A stretch of 23,846 bases of DNA from a virus. This document shows positions 8,204 through 23,675 of the stretch, one piece after another. Numbering within the stretch: position 1 is the first letter of the stretch; each line of letters starts with the position of its first letter. The DNA lies in IMG/VR virus record IMGVR_UViG_3300030329_001545, positions 1 through 23,846 of that record. The stretch is one strand, 5' to 3'. Position numbers and translations under genes: made by a program. Below the pieces are notes generated by a model, which ran no database searches, was not told the origin of the DNA, and saw only the letters and a list, made by a program, of their open reading frames with translations.

Positions 8204-8366
8204 TTTTAACTCCTGGGCTTGGCTTCATTGCGGTCTCTAATAGCAACTCTACTTTTCCATCTTTTGCTAGCGAGAGAGCCTTAGTTTTTTCAAGGTCGTA
8301 GTAGCAGCCTACTTTCAGGTTCCAAAGATCTCCATCCAGCTGCTCTTTAACTCTTACTCTTGTCAT
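8124..8366 (-). CDS. Small hypothetical head-region protein overlapping its neighbours
   Basis: 80 aa from ATG 8366, which overlaps the stop of the preceding gene as ATGA. Similar small proteins (short N-terminal 'VRVKEQLDGDLWNLKVGCYYDLEKTKALSLAKDGKVELL' pattern, here about residues 3-43) are often encoded in capsid modules. The C-terminal half is Lys/Gly/Ser-rich and unstructured. Its last 80 nt lie within the connector gene in another frame, which is unusually long for an operon overlap. An upstream extension of this frame (to 8441) lies inside the preceding gene and is probably not used. Function unknown. Confidence 0.6.
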   Translation of the reverse strand: MTRVRVKEQLDGDLWNLKVGCYYDLEKTKALSLAKDGKVELLLETAMKPSPGVKNARKGTSPNRVSGDSVGGEKAPKADD

Positions 8367-9229
8367 TTCCACTGCTCCCAGTACTTGGTATCTTCTTCCG
8401 CTCCAGACAGTGCTATCAGCTTCTCTCGGGAAATGGCCCATTCTGACTGCGCCTTCTCAGCCTGCGACTGAAGGAGGCTCTGCCGGCTGTTTATCGCTTC
8501 TGAGAGAGATTCTGTTAACTCTCCGTTCATCAAGTGTTTTGCCTGCTCCAGCTCGTTAGCTGCGGCCGTAGCTCCAGCAATCGCCCTGCCATGCATTTCT
8601 AGCTCATGCTTCGCTTGCTGGACTCTGGCAGCTAGCTCAGCTTTCCTAGCTGCCATTTTTGCTGCGTACGCATCATCTTGCCCGTAAGCATACATCACTC
8701 TTGCTTTCAGCAAGTCGGAAACTAGCGGTATTTCTATCTTGATACCCCGGCCTCTTGCAATCCCAAGTATATATTCGCAAGAAGGTCTTTGCGATCCGTA
8801 TTCTTCGCTTGCGGCCATGTCCACCCCATAAACCTGTATCTCTGTTGCGCCATCTAGAATTGCGTGCGCAATCATGAAAGAGATGGTGTTTGTGAAATAC
8901 GTGCCAAACTCTTCTGTTATCTCGTCAATCGGGAATCGTTCGAGGCCGGCTACGTTCTCTTGCGTGAATACAGTTGCGCCTTTTGCCTGCAGGCTATTAA
9001 GCCAGCGCACGTATTCATCTACCTTGGCACCAGCCTCGTCTAGCTTTGACAAAAGGCTAGGCTCGCAGAATTTATGAAGCTCGTAAAATCGGTTGATTCT
9101 CGGGAGGTCGCAAAACGTGCTGTTGGATGCGTCGTAGTAAGGTGAACATGCCCATATTTCAACGCTTTCATCGTAGTATGGAGCCAGACCTCTAGACGAG
9201 GGTGCAGTACCGATAATTGCAACTTTCAC
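8363..9229 (-). CDS. Rossmann/glycosyltransferase-like protein with C-terminal coiled coil
   Basis: 288 aa; GTG start with GGAGG 6 nt upstream. Residues 1-~170 look like a nucleotide-sugar-type Rossmann fold: an N-terminal glycine loop (VAIIGTAPSSRGLAPYYD), a central 'FTNTISFMIAHAILDGATEIQVYGVDM', then 'QRPSCEYILGIARGRGIKIEIP'. I have seen this family beside capsid genes in many environmental phages. The general pattern (GxxPS near the N-terminus and a later G-[IV]-D-[MF]) is reminiscent of DUF115 and GT42 sialyltransferase-like proteins, but I cannot prove homology. Residues ~185-275 are an Ala/Glu/Lys/Gln-rich coiled coil. Placed directly after the capsid gene, it could be a structural or capsid-modifying protein. 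Confidence 0.65.
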   Translation of the reverse strand: MKVAIIGTAPSSRGLAPYYDESVEIWACSPYYDASNSTFCDLPRINRFYELHKFCEPSLLSKLDEAGAKVDEYVRWLNSLQAKGATVFTQENVAGLERFPIDEITEEFGTYFTNTISFMIAHAILDGATEIQVYGVDMAASEEYGSQRPSCEYILGIARGRGIKIEIPLVSDLLKARVMYAYGQDDAYAAKMAARKAELAARVQQAKHELEMHGRAIAGATAAANELEQAKHLMNGELTESLSEAINSRQSLLQSQAEKAQSEWAISREKLIALSGAEEDTKYWEQWK

Positions 9230-13343: not shown

Positions 13344-13495
13344 TTCTCACCCTGCTTTGCGATATTCACTGCGCTGGCTGATATGACGAGGCCTCCGAAA
13401 ATCCAAACTAGCGGAGGATATATGCTGTGAAGTCCGAAAAGAATGCAGCCTAATCCGGTAAAACAAGCTAAGTCAGCGACTAAAGATTTCACCAT
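13340..13495 (-). CDS. Small two-helix membrane protein
   Basis: About 50 aa and too short for many gene callers. It starts at ATG 13495 or, better, at the next codon GTG 13492, which has GGGAGG six nt upstream; spacing to the ATG is only 3 nt. It overlaps the sulfotransferase stop by about 20 nt and ends in ATGA with the portal start, so it fits the operon. Two hydrophobic segments (LVADLACFTGLGCILFGL and YPPLVWIFGGLVISASAV) predict a hairpin in the membrane. Similar tiny membrane proteins sit between terminase and portal in some actinophages. Its function is unknown; holin-like activity is possible but unsupported. Confidence 0.65.
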   Translation of the reverse strand: MVKSLVADLACFTGLGCILFGLHSIYPPLVWIFGGLVISASAVNIAKQGEK

Positions 13496-14108
13496 ACACC
13501 TCCCGTATATGCCTCTGGGTTGCTTGGTCGAGAGCCGGCTCTCCTACGCCGGTCCTGTGGAGGTGCCTAACTTTGGCTGTGCATCCGTACTTTTTCAGCA
13601 AGCTCTGTATACCCTCGGTGTCGTTTATGTCGTACAGCTCTACATAATCATTGATCCACCAGTTGAACCGCCCGACTTCGTTGTAGTTTTTTTCGGCAGC
13701 TGGAAGTATGGAGTCAACATACCAGTCGTTGAACGGTTCGATCTTATTCTCTACATACTCGTAAAAACTGTGTTCCCAGCAGTACCTGTCAGCAGGGTGC
13801 CTCCATTTCACGCTGTCGGTGTCCATGTAGTACCTGCGCCGCCAAAAATTCCATTTTGACCACTCGCACTCCACTGGGTCTCGGATTGTAGCAAAAACTA
13901 CCTCGAAACTGTTGAGAGGTATTCCGGTGAACCCCTCAAAGTCGTCTGCCCTTATGTGGCCTATCGGCAATCCAGGCTTGTGGTCTTTTCTTTTGACTCC
14001 TGGCTCATAATACCCAGGTAGACCGGCTCTTGCTGCTGATGTGACGGAAAGGCCACCGCACTTCGGTATATGGAGATAAAGTATCTTTTCGTTGTAAAAA
14101 ACAGGCAC
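13473..14108 (-). CDS. Sulfotransferase-like protein
   Basis: 211 aa from GTG 14108 (TAGTG overlap with the previous stop, GGAG 8 nt upstream). A TTG at 14144 would add 12 residues. Family signs are the 5'-phosphosulfate loop-like 'YLHIPKCGGLSV' close to the N-terminus, and a 3'-phosphate-binding-like 'VFATIRDPVECEWSKWNFW'. Both are typical of the sulfotransferase family (PAPS to hydroxyl or amine acceptor). Trp-rich and Asp/Glu-rich sections (RRRYYMDTDSVKWRH, GRFNWWINDYVELYD) follow. Position after two nonulosonate-type sugar genes suggests that a sugar or glycoconjugate is the acceptor, an inference. The phage would use host PAPS, since no PAPS synthesis gene is present. Confidence 0.75.
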   Translation of the reverse strand: MPVFYNEKILYLHIPKCGGLSVTSAARAGLPGYYEPGVKRKDHKPGLPIGHIRADDFEGFTGIPLNSFEVVFATIRDPVECEWSKWNFWRRRYYMDTDSVKWRHPADRYCWEHSFYEYVENKIEPFNDWYVDSILPAAEKNYNEVGRFNWWINDYVELYDINDTEGIQSLLKKYGCTAKVRHLHRTGVGEPALDQATQRHIREVYGEIFSR

Positions 14109-14923
14109 TAATGCATCTCCGATGACTGCTTTATCCAACCGCAAAGAGAGCTAAGGCCAGGAGGCTCTAGGCTAGCTGCATGATCCGTTCCCGGCAGTGC
14201 CCTGTTCATGGTAAGGTGAACCTCTACGAGGTCTGCTGCGTATTTTATAGCGGCCGTGGCGGGTGCTTTTACCCCGGCTGTGTGGTCTGAATATCCAACT
14301 ATTACGCCGAATGCGGAACGCAGTCTCTCTATTTCTCGCAGCCTGCACTCTACCGGTGGCGTCGGGTATTTGGAAACGCAGTGCATAAGAGCAACCTCTG
14401 TGTAAATGCTTGCCCAACTGAGAGATGACTCTATTTGGGCAAGGTTCTCTGCTTTCCCTGTGCTTATTATCAAAGGCTTGCCGGTTCTTGCTACTTCCTG
14501 AACTAGCTGCTGATTCAGCATGTCTTTGCTGGCAATCTTGTACATCTTGCACCATTTGTTTTTCTCAAGCCAGTCAAGCCGGTTGACTGCACAGACAGTA
14601 CAAAAAAGATTACAGGGGTTGTCGTTGTATCGGTGCCTCTCTTTTATGTGCTGGAAATCTTCGTCCTGGAGGTCGAGAAACTGGCGGTGTTCCCCGTACG
14701 TCTTGCCGAATGAGTTGCGGCCTCCGTAGGCTTCTCTAAGCTCAGAATCTTCAAACTCTTCAAACCTGTCCCTGGCCTGGAGCTTTACAGAGTCTGCTCC
14801 GCAAGATGCAGCCGTTTGTATCAGCCGTATTGCGTGGTAAACATCGCCGTTGTGGTTCTGGCCTATCTCTGCGATTACGTGGCAGGGATGCCCTGGGCCT
14901 ATGTTGAAATCTCGGAATTGCAA
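14108..14923 (-). CDS. NeuB-like sialic/nonulosonic acid synthase (TIM-barrel domain only)
   Basis: 271 aa; the only plausible start is TTG 14923, inside the 3' end of the previous gene (25-nt overlap). The TIM barrel of the N-acetylneuraminate/legionaminate synthase family is intact: 'HVIAEIGQNHNGD' (about 17-29), 'GADSVKLQ', 'CKMYKIASKDM', 'PLIISTGKA', 'ALMHCVSKYPTP', 'VIVGYSDHTAG' and 'VEVHLTMNRALPGTDHAASLEP'. These enzymes condense PEP with a hexosamine-type sugar to make nine-carbon acidic sugars. The usual C-terminal SAF/antifreeze-like domain (about 60 residues) is absent. In the usual 'EKH' motif before the substrate-binding end of the barrel, Lys is replaced by Val. The order with a cytidylyltransferase supports a CMP-sugar pathway. 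Confidence 0.88.
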   Translation of the reverse strand: MQFRDFNIGPGHPCHVIAEIGQNHNGDVYHAIRLIQTAASCGADSVKLQARDRFEEFEDSELREAYGGRNSFGKTYGEHRQFLDLQDEDFQHIKERHRYNDNPCNLFCTVCAVNRLDWLEKNKWCKMYKIASKDMLNQQLVQEVARTGKPLIISTGKAENLAQIESSLSWASIYTEVALMHCVSKYPTPPVECRLREIERLRSAFGVIVGYSDHTAGVKAPATAAIKYAADLVEVHLTMNRALPGTDHAASLEPPGLSSLCGWIKQSSEMH

Positions 14924-15543
14924 TCCAGTTCTTTCATCCTGTACTCTATTGTCGCCAAGTCTCTAGGCAGGTCTACGACCGTGTGGATCGGCTCTCCTTC
15001 TATTTTTATCCAGTGCGGGTTGCATGAGCAATACGCAGCAACAGTCACGTGCTCTGGTATAGTTCCCCAAAGAGACAATATCTGTCGAGTAAATACTTCT
15101 GGCGCACCATATTTTGTAAGAACACTGGGTACATCGCCAAACCTGTAGCCTACATAATCAGGAGGGTCTTTTGACTGCGCCCAGAGCCGCATCTGGAGCA
15201 CCGCTTCATCAATCATATTGGGGTGAATCAGGGGGCAGTCTCCGTTGACTCTCACTATATGCTTGGGCCTGTATTCTTCTGCAACTGCGATGATCCTCGC
15301 AAGAACATTGTTCTCTGCGACTTTTGGCTCCTCGAAGCGAACGTTTTTTGACTTCAGCCATTCTTTCAGCGGATAGCTTGAGTCGTTCTTTGGGATTGCG
15401 ACTACAACTTCGTCTAGAGTAACAGCCTGACAGCACCGCTCTATTACGTGCTGCAAGACAGGCTTTCCCATGACTTCTTTCAGGCACTTACCTGGGTATC
15501 TATTACTGTTGTATCGAGCAGGTATCACGCATAGAGTTTTCAT
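14899..15543 (-). CDS. Cytidylyltransferase of the NeuA/KdsB/SpsF type (CMP-sugar synthetase)
   Basis: 214 aa; ATG 15543 overlaps the previous stop (ATGA). The N-terminal NTP-binding signature 'VIPARYNSNRYPGKCLKEVMGKPVLQHVIERC' (residues 5-36) is characteristic of CMP-KDO/CMP-NeuAc synthetase and SpsF-type nucleotidyltransferases. The later 'AENNVLARII' and 'VRVNGDCPLIHPNMIDEA' contain the metal-binding Asp loop. It should activate a sugar acid with CTP to CMP-sugar. Its product would be used by a glycosyltransferase that is not obvious in this window (but see the protein at 8363). It pairs with the NeuB-like gene immediately downstream. Confidence 0.85.
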   Translation of the reverse strand: MKTLCVIPARYNSNRYPGKCLKEVMGKPVLQHVIERCCQAVTLDEVVVAIPKNDSSYPLKEWLKSKNVRFEEPKVAENNVLARIIAVAEEYRPKHIVRVNGDCPLIHPNMIDEAVLQMRLWAQSKDPPDYVGYRFGDVPSVLTKYGAPEVFTRQILSLWGTIPEHVTVAAYCSCNPHWIKIEGEPIHTVVDLPRDLATIEYRMKELDCNSEIST

Positions 15544-16184
15544 TTTTTAGCCTTAAAGTTTTCCAGCAGCGCAAACGATTCTGCTCCGTAAGCCGCTAGT
15601 CTGTCGTCTTTGTCTATCCTCAGGTTGCACTCTGCTGCCTCGGTTCTTGAGTACACTACCTTAGCGTATTTCAAGTCGTGCTTGCCTATGAGCAGGTCTT
15701 GTTTTCCTCCTACAGAAGCAGTTAGAACAAGGTTTGCGGGTATCTGGTCTTTTCTTTTCACCCAATACCAGAGAGACTTTGTAAACGCCCAGAAATGACA
15801 ATCTTTATTTTGACGGATAAACATAAGCCATCCGTCAAAATAATCTTGGGAAAAGAAATCGCCGCTAGTGTGTATTCGCACTCTCTTGGCTTTTACCGGA
15901 AAGCAAGAGCTTAAAACCTTAGCTACTTCTTCGGGCGACTTTTTCTTGACCGCTTCGAAGTTTTCCCAGACTCTTTTTCTGACACTAGGGTATCTCTCGT
16001 ACACCGCAGAATAGCACTTGTATTCTTGTTCTTCCCCGTCTGTGATCTTCCCTGTTTTCCTGTCAGCTTTCGCCAGGCACTTTAATGCTAGCGGGCATGT
16101 GTGTCCGCTAGGCAGATTCCATGCGTAAGCCTTCGGGTCGAATATGTATTTGTTTGCGGGGGTAAACTTGGGGCCTTTATTCAT
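15540..16184 (-). CDS. Gp88-like phage protein (possible iron-sulfur/radical-SAM-like)
   Basis: About 214 aa from ATG 16184 (8-nt overlap with the terminase stop). A longer frame to 16199 is open but lacks a better start. The sequence resembles a phage 'Gene product 88'-type family: 'YAWNLPSGHTCPLALKCL', then 'EQEYKCYSAVYERYPSVR' and 'RVRIHTSGDFFSQDYFDGW', 'CHFWAFTKSLWYWVK'. Cysteines at about residues 30, 36 and 57 (C-x5-C-x20-C) could hold a metal or Fe-S cluster, and the repeating strand-helix pattern suggests a TIM-barrel-like fold. It lies between terminase and the sugar island. Function is unknown; the link to radical-SAM chemistry is an inference from the Cys pattern. Confidence 0.7.
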   Translation of the reverse strand: MNKGPKFTPANKYIFDPKAYAWNLPSGHTCPLALKCLAKADRKTGKITDGEEQEYKCYSAVYERYPSVRKRVWENFEAVKKKSPEEVAKVLSSCFPVKAKRVRIHTSGDFFSQDYFDGWLMFIRQNKDCHFWAFTKSLWYWVKRKDQIPANLVLTASVGGKQDLLIGKHDLKYAKVVYSRTEAAECNLRIDKDDRLAAYGAESFALLENFKAKK

Positions 16185-17694
16185 CGTCCCACAAAGCACC
16201 TATGTTAGTGAAATCGTCAAGTAGTTGTCCGCAGAGTTTGATGGCCATGACAGCTGCGACTATCCCGTCTATTTTCTTACCCGATTGACCGTGTTGCGGT
16301 TTCACAGGTCTTATGTTTCCATTGTTGTCTGTCCAAACTTCCACGTTGCTGGCCATCCACTGAGCAACAGGATTTTCGCCGTGGTGCAGCTTCCCGTCTA
16401 GCACAGCCCTCTCCAACTCCCTGGAAGGCTCTGTAAGTTGAGCTACACCCTGCGTAACCTTTACCATGTTTAGCCCCTCCTGCTCTAACTGTTGAGCCGT
16501 AGCAGTTGCGTTCCATGGATCAAACCCGATGTAGTCTATCATGTACTCTTCGGCATCAGCTAGTATCTGCTCGACGATAATGTTGTAATCTATTGTCCCG
16601 CCAGGAGTCGCTACCACATGGCCCTGCCTGACCCACTGGCTGTACGGTACTCTGTCGTTTTCTTCGATCTCATGCATCCGATCTTGAGGTATAAAAAACT
16701 TCCATCGCATCACATATCCTTCGTCTACTGGATGCGCTAGCACCCATGCAGCGATGTCTGTTGTGGATGCAAGGTCTAAGCCGCCGCAGACCTGAGATCC
16801 TTTGGGTATCTCTCCTTTGTTCTCGCAGCTGTTCCACTTGTCCATGTTGAGCCATCTTGTAACTTGCTGCGTATGCTCGTTCAAGTACAGACGCCTGAAA
16901 TCGTTTTCGAGTCTAGTGTTTATGAGAGCCTTTTTTGCGTCTTGCTGCATTGACTCCAGTGACCTGAAATCGCCAAGCGCAGGATTAACTCGGTGCCACA
17001 CATCCTCGTCTTGCCAGTGTTCTCCTTTTTTTATCTCGTAAATTACTGGCAGATACGTAGGATCATCTACTGTCCCGTCTCTTACTCCACATGCGTACTT
17101 GTAAAGCTCCCACTCCAGGCTTTCAGGCTCATACGTGCCTGCGGTAGTGATTGTGAGAAACAGCTTCTCAAGCCTAGCTCCAGAGCCGGTAGTAAGTGCA
17201 GTCCACAGGTCTCTCCTGGGCCAGCAGTGTATCTCGTCTGCAATAATTACGCTCGGATTGTATCCATGCTTGCTGGAATGCTCGCTGGAAAGCGAAGCAA
17301 ATATAGTTCCTGTCTTTTTGTTTACTACTCTTTTTTGCGTAGCAACAATCTTGCATCTCTGGCTAAGCGCAGGGTTGCTCTCTATCATTCCCTGCAACTT
17401 CTTGAAGATAATACCTGCTTGCTCTCGCTCGGCAGCTGCACTGTATATCTCTCCTTCCTGCGGGTCACAGAACAAGAAATACGCAGCAATAGCTGCCGCA
17501 AGCTCAGTCTTTGCGTTTTTGCGAGGAAGCCATATCCCGCATTCTGTATATTGCCGCCGGCCCTCGGGGGTCTTTGTGTCGAACAGCTTACGCAGAATAT
17601 CTTTCTGCCATTCCCTGAGCTTGAACGGCTTGCCAGCATAATCGCCAGAGAGAGTCAAACACTCAATGAAACTGATTACGTTTTCGCTGCTCAT
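16177..17694 (-). CDS. Terminase large subunit (HK97-type)
   Basis: 505 aa; ATG 17694 overlaps the small-subunit stop (ATGA). The ATPase domain has a Walker A variant 'LPRKNAKTELAA' (about 56-67), Walker B 'VIIADEIH' (about 149-156, D153/E154), and a coupling motif 'TITTAG' (about 181-186). The C-terminal nuclease has the expected acidic residues in 'GGLDLASTTDIAAW' (D307), 'DYIGFDPWNA' (D392) and 'KKIDGIVAAVMAI' (D476). It powers DNA packaging and cuts concatemers. The 5' adjacent P27-type small subunit confirms it. Confidence 0.96.
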   Translation of the reverse strand: MSSENVISFIECLTLSGDYAGKPFKLREWQKDILRKLFDTKTPEGRRQYTECGIWLPRKNAKTELAAAIAAYFLFCDPQEGEIYSAAAEREQAGIIFKKLQGMIESNPALSQRCKIVATQKRVVNKKTGTIFASLSSEHSSKHGYNPSVIIADEIHCWPRRDLWTALTTGSGARLEKLFLTITTAGTYEPESLEWELYKYACGVRDGTVDDPTYLPVIYEIKKGEHWQDEDVWHRVNPALGDFRSLESMQQDAKKALINTRLENDFRRLYLNEHTQQVTRWLNMDKWNSCENKGEIPKGSQVCGGLDLASTTDIAAWVLAHPVDEGYVMRWKFFIPQDRMHEIEENDRVPYSQWVRQGHVVATPGGTIDYNIIVEQILADAEEYMIDYIGFDPWNATATAQQLEQEGLNMVKVTQGVAQLTEPSRELERAVLDGKLHHGENPVAQWMASNVEVWTDNNGNIRPVKPQHGQSGKKIDGIVAAVMAIKLCGQLLDDFTNIGALWDDE

Positions 17695-18170
17695 ACAATC
17701 ATTTTTAATATCGGGTCAGCTGATTCTGATTGCCCGTCTGCTACGACAACTCGGGACCGACTGGAGGGAGTCATACCCATCTCGGAAAGCTGACGAAGAA
17801 GCTCCTCTTTGTACTTGTGCAACTCTACGCTGTAAGGGTTGCGTTTAATCTCCCAGGAGCCGTCGTCTTGCTGTGTACGCAAAGCCTGACCGGAAACTCG
17901 GACAAGCTCAAGTGCCCGCCTGTAGTTTGAGTAAGTCTCGCAGTAAAGCTCAAGAGTTGCTTGGTATGTAGAAGTCCACATGCCAGCCGCTCTGAACAAT
18001 ACTTCAACTCTCTCCCACTCTTGTTTTGCCGTGTCGTCCAGATGCTCCGGCATGACTGGATCGTCGCTGGAAGTCTCAGGTATTTCTGTTGCGTATCTCT
18101 TGGGGTTTTTCAGGTGGCGACCTTCTGCGATCTGCACTTCTCTCGCCTTGGGTTTTCTTCCTTTTGACAC
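17691..18170 (-). CDS. Terminase small subunit, P27 family
   Basis: 159 aa; GTG 18170 with GGAGG five nt upstream. The basic N-terminus (SKGRKPKAREVQIAEG) followed by a 'MPEHLDDTAKQEWERVEVLFRAAGMWTSTYQATLELYCETYSNYRRA' helical core is typical of P27 family terminase small subunits. The core continues as 'LRTQQDDGSWEIKRNPYSVELHKYKEELLRQLSEMGMTPSSRSRV' with the usual M-G-[ML]-[ST]-P-S-[SA]-R motif. It recognises the packaging site and recruits the large subunit. Confidence 0.92.
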   Translation of the reverse strand: MSKGRKPKAREVQIAEGRHLKNPKRYATEIPETSSDDPVMPEHLDDTAKQEWERVEVLFRAAGMWTSTYQATLELYCETYSNYRRALELVRVSGQALRTQQDDGSWEIKRNPYSVELHKYKEELLRQLSEMGMTPSSRSRVVVADGQSESADPILKMIV

Positions 18171-18171
18171 G

Positions 18172-18654
18172 TTATCCTCCTAGCAACTCAATCACTTTTT
18201 CTAATGCAGCTTGAGAGTCTGGCACATCGTAGTCCGACTTGATTTTGGATACCCTCGTAGCTATCGACTTTACGTGCCTGGACGTCTGGTTGCTGCCTCT
18301 GGCAGACCTTCCCTTCGAACCATCGTCAAGTATCCTTATGATTGTCGGTGACATCTGTTCGATGTAGGTCTTGTTTGTCAGTCGGTCTCCTTCCCCTACA
18401 ACCGTGTAAGACCTTGATGTCTTGCAAAACAGCGGAAGGTCTTTCATAAGTGCCATGCTCAATCTGTCAGAGCCGGCGTACATGGTTCCATCGTATTTCC
18501 CGACAAAAATAAACTTGCTGTTTCTATGATAGCAAAACATGCCGCATTTTTCGGTAACGTCAGCACAATACATGGAAATAAGTCTCTGCATTACCCATGT
18601 CTTGCCAGAACCGCAAGCACCTATTATTAGGATGTTTTTCATTTCAGAAACCAT
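18172..18654 (-). CDS. P-loop 5-hydroxymethylpyrimidine DNA kinase-like
   Basis: 160 aa from ATG 18654; an alternative ATG at 18642 gives an ATGA junction with the preceding gene. The P-loop 'GACGSGKT' (about 12-19) follows an 'ILII' strand. 'FVGKYDGTMYAGSDRLSMALM' (about 51-70) and 'YTVVGEGDRLTNKTY' (about 83-97) match the P-loop kinase domain of the 5-hydroxymethyldeoxyuridine DNA kinase family as I know it. That family phosphorylates the hydroxymethyl group of 5-hydroxymethyl bases in DNA. A basic C-terminal part (about 110-140, SKGRSARG and HVKSIATRVSKIKS) could contact DNA. The predicted helical domain is in the gene just upstream rather than fused. Confidence 0.78.
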   Translation of the reverse strand: MVSEMKNILIIGACGSGKTWVMQRLISMYCADVTEKCGMFCYHRNSKFIFVGKYDGTMYAGSDRLSMALMKDLPLFCKTSRSYTVVGEGDRLTNKTYIEQMSPTIIRILDDGSKGRSARGSNQTSRHVKSIATRVSKIKSDYDVPDSQAALEKVIELLGG

Positions 18655-19631
18655 TCTCCTCTAAACGGCAATCCGTTGTCCCTGAACGACAATCCTTGTT
18701 TTCTTACTTCTATTTTTTCTTTTGCGCACTCAGCTCTAAGCCATTCCGGGAGAAGCTCTGATCGCATGTCTTTGAAAATCGCGCAGTCTCTGCCTCTCGA
18801 CTCAGCCCACTCGATCCTGTCCCATGCCATGTCTGCGTAGACGCCTGGATACCTGCGTCCGAAAAAATGATTCTTAAAAGTGCATAGATTACTTTCGAAT
18901 GTGAAATTCCCTACGTAATTGACGTTGGGGTGCGACAAGCGGAACTCCTCCAGGAACGATTCTGCGGAGCTTCTAAGATGCCTGCACATCTTGTCGAACT
19001 GCGGATACTTGCCGTCGAATCCGTTCTCCATCCTCTTGTCCCACACCCATTCGTCGTGACCTTGCAAGAGAAGCATCCCGTTTCGGTGGCTCTTGCTTCC
19101 AGACTTATCCTCGAAGAGCAGGTTTGCGCAGTCGGCTCCGAACCCATACAGATACACGTACTCTAGGTAGCTAAAAGAGGACAGCCGGCCAAACGACTTG
19201 TATCTCTTGCTCACCCTGTTCCAGAGGCTTCTGTAGCTGCCTGTTAGCATTTCTTCCTGACTCTTGAAATGAGAAAGAAGGGAAGTGTAAGACCGGATGG
19301 AATCGACGGTGTCTTTCTTCTGATACCTGCGGTCAGTGTCAAACTGAAGGTTGTCCCATTGGTCGTCAAACCATTCCCCAAACTTCTGAAGCTGTGTTTC
19401 GGATGGCGGCTCTGGTATCTTTTCGTATATAGCCAGAGATGTGATTGGGTTTTGTGTCATGCCGTTCAAGAAAGCAAACCAGAGCTTCTGTTCTGGGCAC
19501 CAACCAAAGCGATCAGCTAGTTCAGGCAAATAAAGATAGACAAGGCCAGGCATGACCCCGTATCTCAGATTCATTTCGTACAGACCTGTGAAGAATTTCA
19601 GCCTGTTTTCTTTAAGCCTGTAGTCTTTCAT
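18639..19631 (-). CDS. Helical protein of the ADDT/hmdU-kinase-helical (aGPT-PPlase) superfamily
   Basis: 330 aa; ATG 19631 overlaps the previous stop (ATGA). The N-terminus 'FFTGLYEMNLRYGVMPGLVYLYLPELADRFGWCPEQKLWFAFLNGMTQNPITSL' (split here: residues 13-65) is the recognisable helical start of this superfamily. The middle 'FGRLSSFSYLEYVYLYGFGADCANLLFEDKSGSKSHRNGML' (about 147-187) resembles the helix-hairpin-like core seen in phage HMUDK_hel/amino acid:DNA transferase proteins. The neighbouring P-loop kinase (stop/start overlap) suggests the two act as split parts of one kinase, or as kinase plus transferase. The second family member in this operon is at 21335. Superfamily is confident; the exact clade is not. 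Confidence 0.7.
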   Translation of the reverse strand: MKDYRLKENRLKFFTGLYEMNLRYGVMPGLVYLYLPELADRFGWCPEQKLWFAFLNGMTQNPITSLAIYEKIPEPPSETQLQKFGEWFDDQWDNLQFDTDRRYQKKDTVDSIRSYTSLLSHFKSQEEMLTGSYRSLWNRVSKRYKSFGRLSSFSYLEYVYLYGFGADCANLLFEDKSGSKSHRNGMLLLQGHDEWVWDKRMENGFDGKYPQFDKMCRHLRSSAESFLEEFRLSHPNVNYVGNFTFESNLCTFKNHFFGRRYPGVYADMAWDRIEWAESRGRDCAIFKDMRSELLPEWLRAECAKEKIEVRKQGLSFRDNGLPFRGEWFLK

Positions 19632-20386
19632 TCTTCTACCGGCTTCAAGCCTTTATGCCCCTCGCCGGCCTCGATTTTCAAAAACCTTATATCTGCTCCA
19701 TCGAGGACAGATTCTTCTGGCTCTATCTTGATGTAGAAACAGGTTCCGTGGTATGCCATCGCAGTAACCCTGTACCCGTAGCGATTCTGGAAGAAAGCAC
19801 TAAAACACTTGGCGTAGCTCTCTCTGTCCTCTCCTGCTGCGAACCCCCGACCCTTCAAGTGCTTGACCATGAAATGCCATCGGCAGCTAGAACCATCAGT
19901 TATTATTATTGCCCTGGGCTTGTGCGATATCATCCTTTCCATCTCCTGCTTCCAGTGACCGTTAAGATATTTTATGAGAGTGAAATGGGGGAAGTCACAC
20001 ACGTATATGTCTGCCGGCTCTAGCCCTAGAGTTAAATGCGCGTCAGAGTGATTTATTTCTACGTTTTTGTATTCTCTGGTGCAGTAGTGAAGCTGGTGCA
20101 AGCACTCTAGGTCTAGCTCTCCTATAACGTGCTTGGCAGGCTTCAACATTTCTTGTATCGCAACTGAGAAAACTCCACAGCCGCCAAAAGGCTCATCTAC
20201 TTTGATCTCTTGACCGGCGTGCTCACTCAGCAAGAACTGCTGGCAGAGGACGTTTTTGCCTGTCTCCTGCCACCTCTTGTTAAGGTACTGGTAGTAGCTG
20301 TAATCTCCATCGGGCATTTGCTTTGGTTTGCCCGGAAGCAGAGAAAAAGAATATCGATTCAGTATTTTCCACTTAGTTATCATCAC
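19628..20386 (-). CDS. Rossmann methyltransferase-like protein in the DNA-modification operon
   Basis: 252 aa; GTG 20386 overlaps the previous stop (GTGA) or ATG 20383 by one base. The SAM-binding motif I-like 'VDEPFGGCGVFSVAI' (about 63-77), 'IGELDLECL' (motif II-like, about 88-96) and 'VCDFPHFTL' (about 129-137, in place of the DPPF-type catalytic motif IV) indicate a SAM-dependent methyltransferase fold. The catalytic motif differs from both adenine/N4-cytosine (DPPY/SPPY) and C5-cytosine (PCQ) methylases. The substrate is therefore uncertain: it could methylate a pyrimidine, a modified side chain, or be a catalytically diverged member. Gene order places it between the PLP enzyme and an ADDT-type protein. 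Confidence 0.7.
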   Translation of the reverse strand: MMITKWKILNRYSFSLLPGKPKQMPDGDYSYYQYLNKRWQETGKNVLCQQFLLSEHAGQEIKVDEPFGGCGVFSVAIQEMLKPAKHVIGELDLECLHQLHYCTREYKNVEINHSDAHLTLGLEPADIYVCDFPHFTLIKYLNGHWKQEMERMISHKPRAIIITDGSSCRWHFMVKHLKGRGFAAGEDRESYAKCFSAFFQNRYGYRVTAMAYHGTCFYIKIEPEESVLDGADIRFLKIEAGEGHKGLKPVEE

Positions 20387-21342
20387 GCAATCTCAGGGTA
20401 AAAAGGCTCGATAACCTTGGTCTTTGGAGCACTACCGATTATCCAAAAACCTACGCAGCCGTCTTGCGGCAGCGGTGCATTTTCTCTCAGGTATCTCCAC
20501 ACCTTGGCCTCGTATGTAGGGTGGAACTGTATACCCTCGAAGGACTCCCCGTTGAATTTGTCCGAATATGCGCAGTACTTGTTGTCGTGCAGCGAATAAT
20601 GCCTCCAGCGAAACGGCAAATATCCCGTATCGACTCCCATTATTTTTAAGCGTTGCCTTACCCAGTCCATCTTGTCTGGTCCTATGCCCAGAGTGAATAT
20701 CTCTTTCAGGTTGTGCGGGTCTTTGCTCAGGCCCAGGAGTATACTGGTGAGAGAGTTACAAGAGCCGGCTGGTATCACTAAAACCTCAACCTCGTCCGGT
20801 ATGTTCACTGTCTGATATGCTCCTACGTCGTGGAAGCCTTTTACATCCTCAGCTGGATGCTTGTGATGCGGAACAGTTATCCCGTACTCCACGACAAGAG
20901 AGCTACGCTCTCGGAGATCTTCTACACGCTTCTGAATGATCGGGTTGTACGGACCTGAAGCATAGTCGAACTCTGCCCCGAAGCCTGCTGCTATCCTTGG
21001 GTTGTCGTGAGTTTTCACCGTGTGCGGTTTGCTGTAGACAACTTGCCGGGACAGCATCCCGTAATGATATCCAACGATAGCACTCATGCTGAGTTGCGGA
21101 GACTGTATCGAGGCTCCTGTCAGTATGTAGTCTTTGCCGGCTTTGAACCTATTTACGTACCATATAAGCTGGCGCATCTTAGAGCCGTTTGGACCTCCAT
21201 AGCCTAGAGGTGCAAAATAATCTTCTCTTTTGAACCATATGCCGGCTTTGTTGTGCCATGGAGTCAAGTGAGACAGATAGCTTTCCCACTTGATCTCGTC
21301 TCGATCCACCGACAGCCTGTCAAATACAGTTCCTTCAGACAC
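20383..21342 (-). CDS. Fold-type II PLP-dependent enzyme (ACC deaminase-like)
   Basis: 319 aa; GTG 21342 lies 8 nt inside the preceding gene with SD-like GAGG near it. 'WFKREDYFAPLGYGGPNGSKMRQLIW' (residues 36-61) carries the predicted Schiff-base Lys55. 'TGASIQSPQLSMSAIVGYHYG' (75-95) and the PLP-phosphate loop 'PAGSCNSLTSILLG' (191-204) complete a tryptophan synthase beta/ACC deaminase-type fold. In phage hypermodification pathways PLP enzymes decarboxylate or otherwise tailor amino acids attached to bases. That role is inferred from the operon, not proved by sequence. A metabolic ACC deaminase role is less likely in this context. Confidence 0.85.
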   Translation of the reverse strand: MSEGTVFDRLSVDRDEIKWESYLSHLTPWHNKAGIWFKREDYFAPLGYGGPNGSKMRQLIWYVNRFKAGKDYILTGASIQSPQLSMSAIVGYHYGMLSRQVVYSKPHTVKTHDNPRIAAGFGAEFDYASGPYNPIIQKRVEDLRERSSLVVEYGITVPHHKHPAEDVKGFHDVGAYQTVNIPDEVEVLVIPAGSCNSLTSILLGLSKDPHNLKEIFTLGIGPDKMDWVRQRLKIMGVDTGYLPFRWRHYSLHDNKYCAYSDKFNGESFEGIQFHPTYEAKVWRYLRENAPLPQDGCVGFWIIGSAPKTKVIEPFYPEIA

Positions 21343-22060
21343 GCGCCTCTAGCCTCCTAGACTTCAGATGCTTTATGTCCGATCCTACGCTGTAGTGACC
21401 GTGGGCGTAAGAGTGGTACTTGCACAGCAGCGTCTCTATTTCATTGATATTTATCCCTCTGTCCTGGTTGTGAGGGGTAGTTGAGGGGTTGATATCGGCT
21501 GACATATCTAAAACTCTGTTCATGCACTCATGGTAGATTTTTCGCTGCTTCAGAAGTCTTATGTCCTCAGGGTATCCCCCTACCATCAGGAGACCCATCA
21601 GCGGTGCCCTGTAAGTGTTGCGGAAGTCTATCGTGTCAAAATCTACATCCATGCCGTAGCAGCAGCTAACCAAGTCCATCATGTTCCATGCTGCCCAAGG
21701 GCCGCAGCCTCTTATCTTCACTATGTCGTTAAAGACCAGTTGCCCATGCCTTCCGAAAAAACGCTCTATGTTTAATCCTAGAAATCTCTGCCTGATTGCT
21801 GTCAGATATTCAGCTGCCCTTGCCTTGTGTTTCCTCCTCTCTGTTCCGTACTTGCATGACGATAATGTTGACTGCCCTGTAAGTACCTGGAACTCGCTAA
21901 CAGAATCGTAGATAACAATCTTGTGGAGTATCCATTCGAATATCTCCTGATGGCCCCATCCGACCTCAGCCGACTTCTCTCTCAGGAATATGTAGTCAGG
22001 GTCTATATCTCCCGTCTCCAGGAGTATCTTGGAGAACCTAACGAAGCTCAGGTTGCCCAC
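21335..22060 (-). CDS. Amino acid:DNA transferase (ADDT)-like protein with helix-hairpin-helix
   Basis: 241 aa; GTG 22060 overlaps the dioxygenase stop by 13 nt. Features are an N-terminal helical pattern (VRFSKILLETGDIDPDYIFLREKSAEVGW), an HhH-like 'VKIRGCGPWAAWNMMDL' (114-130), and a C-terminal 'NEIETLLCKYHSYAHGHYSVGSDIKHL' (about 206-232). That last pattern resembles the 'ETxLCxxHSxxxGxYxVGxDI' signature I associate with ADDT/aGPT-PPlase clade 2 proteins of actinophages. Such enzymes are proposed or shown to transfer amino acids onto phosphorylated hydroxymethyl pyrimidines in DNA. The neighbours (dioxygenase, PLP enzyme, kinase) support this. Confidence 0.8.
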   Translation of the reverse strand: MGNLSFVRFSKILLETGDIDPDYIFLREKSAEVGWGHQEIFEWILHKIVIYDSVSEFQVLTGQSTLSSCKYGTERRKHKARAAEYLTAIRQRFLGLNIERFFGRHGQLVFNDIVKIRGCGPWAAWNMMDLVSCCYGMDVDFDTIDFRNTYRAPLMGLLMVGGYPEDIRLLKQRKIYHECMNRVLDMSADINPSTTPHNQDRGININEIETLLCKYHSYAHGHYSVGSDIKHLKSRRLEARV

Positions 22061-22872
22061 GGTGATCTCTTCTCTGCGTCCGTTCTAGAAGATCTGTAGT
22101 GCTGTATCTCTTCTTTAAGCGGAAGGCATTTCCACATCTGCTGCATCGAGTAATAAACAGCTGTGAACCTGTACCCTCCTTTTCTCACTTTTATCGGAGT
22201 GACTCCGTGGACCAACCTCTGTCCATCGAAGCTGATGAAACTTCTGTCTGATATCGAGAACGAAATATCAAGCTCTGGAACACACAGAAGCCCACCCGTA
22301 GACTTGTGCCTGAATCCAGCCATCACCTGACGGCAGCTCTTGAAGTTGCCACGATCCAAGTGGTAATGCAGGGCATTGTTTTTGTTTGCTATGCCGCTCG
22401 TAAATACACTGCCACGTATCTTGTAATCGTCTACCATCTCAGAATCGTCTACGATCTTCTTGTGCTTTTCATAAGCCTCTGGCGACATCCTGCTGTACCA
22501 CTCGCAGGCTTCCAGCCCTAGCCTCTCCATGGCCGCATAAAAGTCAGGCATATCCTCGGCTGTGGATGCAGCCCTGCATGGAGAGTTGCGTAGAGCGTTT
22601 CTTGGTGCGTACCCGAATATCCTAGACTGCGTACGCAAACCGCCACTCCTGGTGGCATCAACAAACCCACCGGGGTCTTTGTGGAATATCCTTTTCGCCT
22701 CGTTCATTGCCGGGGAAGATATGCCAACCTGATACACGCAGAGGACGTCTCCGCTGCTGCTGTGTATTACTGCGTCATAGTCAACATGCCGGCTGCAGTC
22801 TGACTCTTCGGGCTGGCGATTTACATAATCGTTGTTGTCGATTTCTCGGGGGTCTACTTCAAGGTATTTCAT
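22048..22872 (-). CDS. TET/JBP-type 2-oxoglutarate/Fe(II) DNA dioxygenase
   Basis: 274 aa from ATG 22872 (14-nt overlap with the ParB-like gene); a TTG at 22878 adds two residues. The metal/2OG motifs of the TET/JBP family are visible in order: the H-x-D in 'NALHYHLDRGNF' (about 168-179, H173/D175), then 'GGLLCVPELDISFSISDRSFISFDGQRLVHGVTPI' (about 195-229) with the distal His224. 'YRFTAVYYSMQQMWKC' (about 236-251) has the 2OG-binding Arg237 (numbering from the TTG). Phage relatives oxidise 5-methylpyrimidines in DNA to the hydroxymethyl form. Whether the substrate here is 5-methylcytosine or thymine is not readable from the sequence. Confidence 0.83.
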   Translation of the reverse strand: MKYLEVDPREIDNNDYVNRQPEESDCSRHVDYDAVIHSSSGDVLCVYQVGISSPAMNEAKRIFHKDPGGFVDATRSGGLRTQSRIFGYAPRNALRNSPCRAASTAEDMPDFYAAMERLGLEACEWYSRMSPEAYEKHKKIVDDSEMVDDYKIRGSVFTSGIANKNNALHYHLDRGNFKSCRQVMAGFRHKSTGGLLCVPELDISFSISDRSFISFDGQRLVHGVTPIKVRKGGYRFTAVYYSMQQMWKCLPLKEEIQHYRSSRTDAEKRSPWAT

Positions 22873-23482
22873 AACCAAGTTCTCGGAGAACCCGAATAAT
22901 GGTGTTGGTGAAATCAGGCTGACCGTATTTCTCTCGCAGGCTTTCGAGTGCTGCTACTACTGCGCCGTATTCTTCCTGAGAAAAGGTCAGGTGGACTTGC
23001 TTTACAATCCCGTCGTAAGTCAGATGTCCAGGCTGTAGATTCTCGTTCCTTATCTCCTCCACCGGCTCCATCCAGTCTCCTGTACCTGTGTCTACATCAG
23101 CTAGCAACTCGATCATCTCGTCCTGGGTAAATCCAGAAGCTGAAAGAAGCTTGTCGTCGAATGAGCCAATCTGTGCAGCCAATTCTTCTTCATTCCATGC
23201 GGCCAGTTCTGCTGTTCGATTGTCAGCTATTGCAAACGCCTGTGCTTCGTCTGCCTCTAAATCTGTAACTGCGACCGCTATTTCTTTCCAGCCTAAAGAG
23301 CTAGCAGCCTGGAGTGTTCCGTTGCCTGCTATCACCCTGTTGTTTTTGTCCACAACTATAGGCTTTTGCTGGCCGAACTGGTCTAAGGATTTCTTGATAG
23401 AATCTATATTCCTCTCGCTGTGCTGCCTGGCATTACTAGGATCTTCTGCCAGCTGCTTGACTTGCATCTTTTTAACTCTCAT
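22859..23482 (-). CDS. ParB-like nuclease-domain protein
   Basis: 207 aa from ATG 23482, chosen because GGAGG lies 11 nt upstream; an earlier ATG at 23500 is possible. The N-terminal ParB/Srx-type domain shows 'VKQLAEDPSNARQHSERNIDSIKKSLDQFGQQKPIVVDKNNRVIAGNGTLQAASSLG' followed by 'VAVTDLEADEAQAFAIADNRTAEL' (spanning about residues 8-95). Many phages carry such domains near terminase or DNA-modification genes. Some act as sequence-specific DNA-binding or CTPase proteins, others are fused to methylases. There is no HTH or partition ParA partner here, so chromosome partitioning is not implied. The C-terminal part (about 125-205) is charged and helical. Confidence 0.85.
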   Translation of the reverse strand: MRVKKMQVKQLAEDPSNARQHSERNIDSIKKSLDQFGQQKPIVVDKNNRVIAGNGTLQAASSLGWKEIAVAVTDLEADEAQAFAIADNRTAELAAWNEEELAAQIGSFDDKLLSASGFTQDEMIELLADVDTGTGDWMEPVEEIRNENLQPGHLTYDGIVKQVHLTFSQEEYGAVVAALESLREKYGQPDFTNTIIRVLRELGYEIP

Positions 23483-23675
23483 GGAACGAGTTTCCTCCAT
23501 TGTGAAATCCTGCGATAAAATCTCCGCATATCAGCTCCAGGCACCTACCCTCACTTATCGTGTGATCTTCTTCCGCGACTCGGAGCATGTGCATCGCTCT
23601 GTCTACAATGCTCCTCTGGTCCTTAGTTAATCGAACTGGCCGGCCCATGCAAGACCTATCCCCCCGATCATGCAC
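23472..23675 (-). CDS. Small hypothetical protein, possible DNA-binding/regulatory
   Basis: About 67 aa from GTG 23675, chosen because AGAGG lies 7 nt upstream; TTG 23681 and ATG 23648 are alternatives. The core 'LTKDQRSIVDRAMHMLRVAEEDHTISEGRCLELICGDFIAGF' is helical, with a SEGRxLELICxDF pattern I associate with short phage proteins encoded near ParB-like or terminase genes. No catalytic motif. It overlaps the ParB-like start by 11 nt. It is the first visible gene of the operon. Confidence 0.6.
   Translation of the reverse strand: MHDRGDRSCMGRPVRLTKDQRSIVDRAMHMLRVAEEDHTISEGRCLELICGDFIAGFHNGGNSFHES

Follow-up and report, generated by a model that had tools for sequence, protein, structure and literature searches.

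The window, by which we mean the whole stretch of DNA analysed, is a 23.8-kb virus fragment, and every absence from the window reported below applies to that fragment. Its list of open reading frames contains six long, intact frames, A to F, which lie side by side on the minus strand between positions 18172 and 22878 in the order A-B-C-D-E-F, as the original prediction had described. Gene A starts with a TTG codon; position 22872, taken in that prediction as its end, is an in-frame ATG. The successive pairs A/B, B/C, C/D, D/E and E/F overlap by 13, 8, 4, 4 and 16 nt, respectively. A gap of 1 nt separates the end of F from the small terminase gene, TerS, which itself overlaps the gene for the large terminase, TerL, and a ParB-like gene overlaps A on its upstream side; ParB-A-B-C-D-E-F-TerS-TerL is thus one coupled unit, with the following features:

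22859-23500, minus strand: ParB-like protein (Pfam ParB_N, 3e-7; found ahead of TET in most related contigs, and likewise in actinophages)
22048-22878, minus strand: A, TET/JBP 2OG-Fe(II) dioxygenase (Pfam PF12851, 1.4e-11)
21335-22060, minus strand: B, M6-type amino acid:DNA transferase (ADDT) (phmmer to solved ADDTs; hhalign)
20383-21342, minus strand: C, PLP-dependent fold-type II enzyme (AlphaFold model, Foldseek, K55)
19628-20386, minus strand: D, class I SAM-methyltransferase-like protein (predicted fold, conserved motifs)
18639-19631, minus strand: E, ADDT (Pfam PF18724, 2.3e-17, above cut-off)
18172-18654, minus strand: F, TET-associated P-loop kinase (Walker A; relatives in TET clusters)
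17691-18170, minus strand: TerS, small terminase (flank, outside the pathway)
16177-17694, minus strand: TerL, large terminase (flank, outside the pathway)

The terminase genes are recognized by Pfam Terminase_4 (4e-20) and TerL_ATPase/TerL_nuclease. The ParB gene adjoins that of the TET enzyme in most related loci, and also in CaiB, RawrgerThat and MementoMori; judged by this comparison, it is part of the conserved block. A nucleotide-level search of the window DNA against phages gave no match, and a TerL-based search found no relatives of the window's own phage. Within the block of head genes, on the minus strand at 13473-15543 and 8363-9229, are a NeuB gene (Pfam, 8e-56) and a CTP/CMP-sugar-type cytidylyltransferase gene, along with an unassigned 288-aa protein and a gene that weakly matches sulfotransferases; together they are possibly a phage nonulosonic-acid (sialic-acid-like) set.

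Family assignments of the six proteins

Profile and structure searches upheld the family predicted for each of the six proteins: the evidence is strong for A, C and E, moderate for B and F, and at the level of the fold for D. Given that A and E exceed Pfam cut-offs, that B matches solved ADDTs, and that C and D both have relatives, the six-gene set is not a product of chance.

The match of A to the Tet_JBP profile lies above the Pfam cut-off, and His173, Asp175, His224 and Arg237, which provide the HxD...H iron site and the arginine for 2-oxoglutarate, are invariant in a six-sequence alignment; the protein is predicted to act on thymine within DNA, oxidising it to 5-hydroxymethyluracil (hmU). 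Phylogenetically, A groups (97/89), on a long branch (1.49), with the TETs of contigs whose TerL and portal genes are homologous to those of the window and which have none of the tailoring genes seen here. The PHROG label 'queuine tRNA-ribosyltransferase' attached to A was rejected as a mislabel in the light of the Pfam and residue evidence, and the same public annotation of relatives of A also looks wrong.

Of the two proposed ADDTs, E is the clear case and B the more moderate one. E scores 64 bits against the ADDT profile PF18724 (cut-off 26.2), and by tblastn it is 38% identical to RawrgerThat gene 3 and 28-31% identical to Ackermannviridae proteins; it appears to be the ADDT type common to Ackermannviridae and cluster-B mycobacteriophages. 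B falls just under the cut-off of the same profile (23.2 bits; 6.7e-5), and it matches solved ADDTs by phmmer (PDB codes: 25qc, 1.6e-13; 8z2m, a glycinyltransferase, 3.7e-10) and the M6-type ADDT profile by hhalign (probability 99.9%). It also keeps T16/D18/D20-P21/Y23, E74-R75-R76, E209-T-L-C213 and D228, and is probably a glycinyltransferase-like ADDT. A helical kinase subunit was considered for B and discarded in favour of the M6-type ADDT (hhalign 0.7%).

The AlphaFold model of C is confident (pLDDT 90.8), and its best Foldseek matches in the PDB are D-cysteine desulfhydrase (4d8w, 8.8e-12) and ACC deaminase. The active-site lysine, Lys55, is invariant among relatives, and modelled fold and lysine together indicate a fold-type II PLP enzyme. 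Relatives at 58-74% identity occur in 70 viral loci, in most of which E adjoins, and Ackermannviridae-type phage proteins are 36-38% identical; no relatives were found in bacterial or archaeal genomes. From its co-occurrence and fusion (see below) with E, we predict that C decarboxylates the base-linked amino acid.

D gave no significant family in Pfam, PHROG or NCBIfam. Its predicted model is of moderate quality (pLDDT 64), and Foldseek relates it to SAM methyltransferases with probability 1.0 (best 1.2e-6), in agreement with the methyltransferase-like protein first proposed. Relatives are found at 63-68% identity, the motifs EPFGGCG, GELD and DFPxFT are conserved, and homologs occur within M6-like clusters, in Pseudanabaena phage Pam3 and in a further contig (L214); none was found in Ackermannviridae. 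At the level of the modelled fold, D would represent an undescribed class I SAM-methyltransferase-like tailoring family, with no database entry and seen only in hypermodification-bearing phages.

F carries the Walker A motif GACGSGKT and matches Pfam Ploopntkinase3 weakly (15.3 bits; cut-off 27). It is 40-44% identical to kinases in three TET clusters (L189, L190 and L198), and kinases of its type adjoin TET/ADDT genes in many contigs; tblastn of F against phages gave no match. At family level, hhalign aligns it with the P-loop kinases of the C-D-E loci described below (96.5%, E-value 8.8e-10), a member of which, in L013, matches HMUDK_HMUD1 at 1.3e-5, under the cut-off. F is predicted to be an hmU-DNA kinase.

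Recurrence of the parts in other viral contigs

C-D-E occurs in the same order in nine IMG/VR loci (L005-L013; in L006 and L007 a small additional ORF separates C from D), at 63-72% identity to the window. These contigs differ from the window in having no TET, no B and another kinase: the neighbours of C-D-E are a P-loop kinase, the helical kinase subunit HMUDK_hel and a gene of the thymidylate-synthase/hydroxymethylase family (its counterpart in MP1412, an M6-like phage, is 42% identical), and hmU is presumably made there on nucleotides. We regard C-D-E as a transferable cassette. A further scan of C for TET contexts yielded none in additional loci. Relatives of B, at 50-55% identity, directly follow TET in contigs with the order ParB-TET-B-kinase-terminase, where a flavoenzyme often separates B from the kinase; the window lacks this flavoenzyme. 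As B/F, C-D-E and the TET of the window each have their relatives in different types of contig, the operon appears to be a mosaic with three sources: a ParB-TET-terminase frame, B and F in common with TET-B-flavoenzyme-kinase phages, and the C-D-E cassette in common with phages that use a dUMP hydroxymethylase to make hmU.

An independent second case of TET with the C/E/D/F set is provided by contig IMGVR 3300024520_002273 (L246/L251), where ParB, TET, a 712-aa fusion and an F-like kinase are contiguous. The N-terminal half of the fusion (L251:1853-3991) is C-like (38% identity) and the C-terminal half E-like (36%), which supports the action of C and E in sequence on one substrate; this natural fusion links PLP chemistry to the attachment of the amino acid. 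A homolog of D (65%) lies elsewhere on the contig, directly beside a gene for a 2OG-Fe(II) oxygenase (PF13640; L246:7441-7995). No hydroxymethylase was found on this contig; the stretch read at L251 showed no B, and an ADDT profile search of the contig matched the fusion alone.

The target base and a candidate pathway

The original prediction saw no dUMP hydroxymethylase or hmC synthase in the window and took the dioxygenase, acting on DNA, as the probable source of the hydroxymethyl group. A profile search indeed finds no thymidylate-synthase/hydroxymethylase family gene in the window, and the wider comparison favours the second proposal as well: the family is present in all 27 C/E records that lack TET, and in 0 of 25 records with TET plus ADDT or kinase, among them the window and the contig with the fusion (Fisher p 2e-15, although the records are related and often fragments, such that the counts are not independent). 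HMUDK_hel divides in the same way, being found in 5/5 against 0/8 of the TET records searched, the window included. Hydroxymethylase-family and TET genes thus appear to be mutually exclusive in the records compared; this, with the rarity of C5-cytosine methyltransferases (see below), suggests that TET replaces the hydroxymethylase as the source of hmU. Of the two bases that had been named as targets, cytosine and thymine, thymine is the most likely on this genomic context, and cytosine is disfavoured by the methyltransferase searches.

A pathway on cytosine would have A oxidise 5mC, supplied by a host or unseen phage C5-methyltransferase, to 5hmC, which the later enzymes would decorate. Phage TETs acting on 5mC have reportedly been described (Burke 2021). 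A C5-methyltransferase is encoded on some contigs with TETs of this family, so that other members of the family may have cytosine substrates, and some contigs encode a TET-associated glycosyltransferase. The C5-methyltransferase is, however, rare among other TET contigs (it is present near TET at L113 and in single records), and it is absent from the window, from three complete TET-kinase actinophages and from all 27 of the C/E records that carry the dUMP-type hydroxymethylase family gene; B, moreover, matches ADDTs of thymidine-modifying phages. We consider the cytosine pathway improbable. Two further arrangements were observed among TET contigs: a large phage contig (L079/L080) has two ParB-TET pairs, a flavoenzyme, an acetyltransferase, a kinase and also a C5-methyltransferase, and many contigs at several loci (L096-L164) have the TET-associated glycosyltransferase between ParB and TET, usually with no C5-methyltransferase.

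We think it likely that the six genes form a phage DNA hypermodification operon that acts on thymine after replication. Building on the family memberships of A, B, C and E established above, we infer substrate, order and product as follows. A, from a family of hydroxylases, would oxidise the thymine methyl group within the DNA, giving hmU; F, by its family, would phosphorylate the hydroxymethyl group to create a leaving group; the two different ADDTs, E (probably of the ViI-like phage type) and B (of the glycine type), would displace the phosphate with amino acids; and C would decarboxylate the attached amino acid to an amine. D would probably methylate the product, perhaps at the amine, and this is the weakest step. 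The end product, predicted to be an aminoalkyl-thymine, would block host nucleases. The assignments of serine, glycine and decarboxylation draw on homology and background literature, and the second contig, which lacks B, counts against the scheme, given the two ADDTs of the window. Only tentatively, and with doubts that outweigh our confidence, do we propose that TET oxidation of thymine in DNA is followed by the work of both ADDTs, the PLP enzyme and a novel SAM-dependent family, and that these build an N-methylated aminoalkyl-thymine not known from any DNA.

The same thymine chemistry could instead run along two parallel routes, with A and F serving both: B, with host or other enzymes, would give a glycine-derived base, and E-C-D a separate amine base. 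The association of B with flavoenzyme-linked clusters and of E with the PLP cassette, as well as the lack of B at L251, fits this variant; yet the window lacks the flavoenzyme usually found after B, a single coupled operon points to a single product, and B could be left over from the earlier cassette. We regard the variant as possible but rather unlikely. It is very improbable that the operon is a decayed or assembly-joined mosaic, in which insertion of the cassette displaced the flavoenzyme and no finished base is made. Such decay would account for the missing FAD gene and the long TET branch, but the six frames are intact and overlapping with their catalytic residues kept, the contig is continuous with the terminase, and TET occurs together with the C/E/D/F set in another phage.

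Comparison with known systems

Clusters of ParB, TET, transferase and kinase genes preceding the terminase have been published for Gordonia phage CaiB (PMC9302106) and Rhodococcus phage Tonitrus (PMC11955845), which bears out the similarity to actinophage clusters first suggested for this locus. These clusters (CaiB, Tonitrus and cluster-B mycobacteriophages) share with the window the order ParB-TET/JBP-pyrophosphorylase (ADDT)-kinase, the position before the terminase, the gene overlaps, and the combination of TET, ADDT and P-loop kinase with no hydroxymethylase. They differ in having one ADDT or none, and some have a flavoenzyme; the C and D families are in none of CaiB, RawrgerThat and MementoMori.

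The Ackermannviridae/ViI phages, whose thymidine hypermodification is 5-NeOmdU and whose family chemistry has been reported (PMC11721090, PMC6449724), carry E-like ADDTs and C-like PLP proteins, whereas they start from 5-hmdU made on nucleotides, their genes are scattered and no D relative was found in them. The pathways of M6/Yuavirus (M6 makes 5-NedU) and of the PaMx11-type glycinyltransferase share an ADDT of the B type with the window, and M6-like clusters (Pam3 and L214) also share relatives of D; these pathways differ in their hydroxymethylase, HMUDK P-loop and helical kinases, radical SAM enzyme and different PLP enzyme.

Relative to the published TET, ADDT and kinase clusters, the PLP enzyme, the D family and the presence of two ADDTs appear to be new; we found no description of TET with a PLP enzyme and D in the literature, although priority is not certain. 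The modified thymine would be a disguise against bacterial defences, put together from components of three known types of viral gene set, and the role of phage TET/JBP enzymes outside cytosine systems is brought down to a small, testable gene set. Overall, the comparison suggests that the same amino-acid tailoring cassettes can be served by either of two interchangeable front ends, a hydroxymethylase that forms hmU on nucleotides or a TET/JBP enzyme that forms it in DNA.
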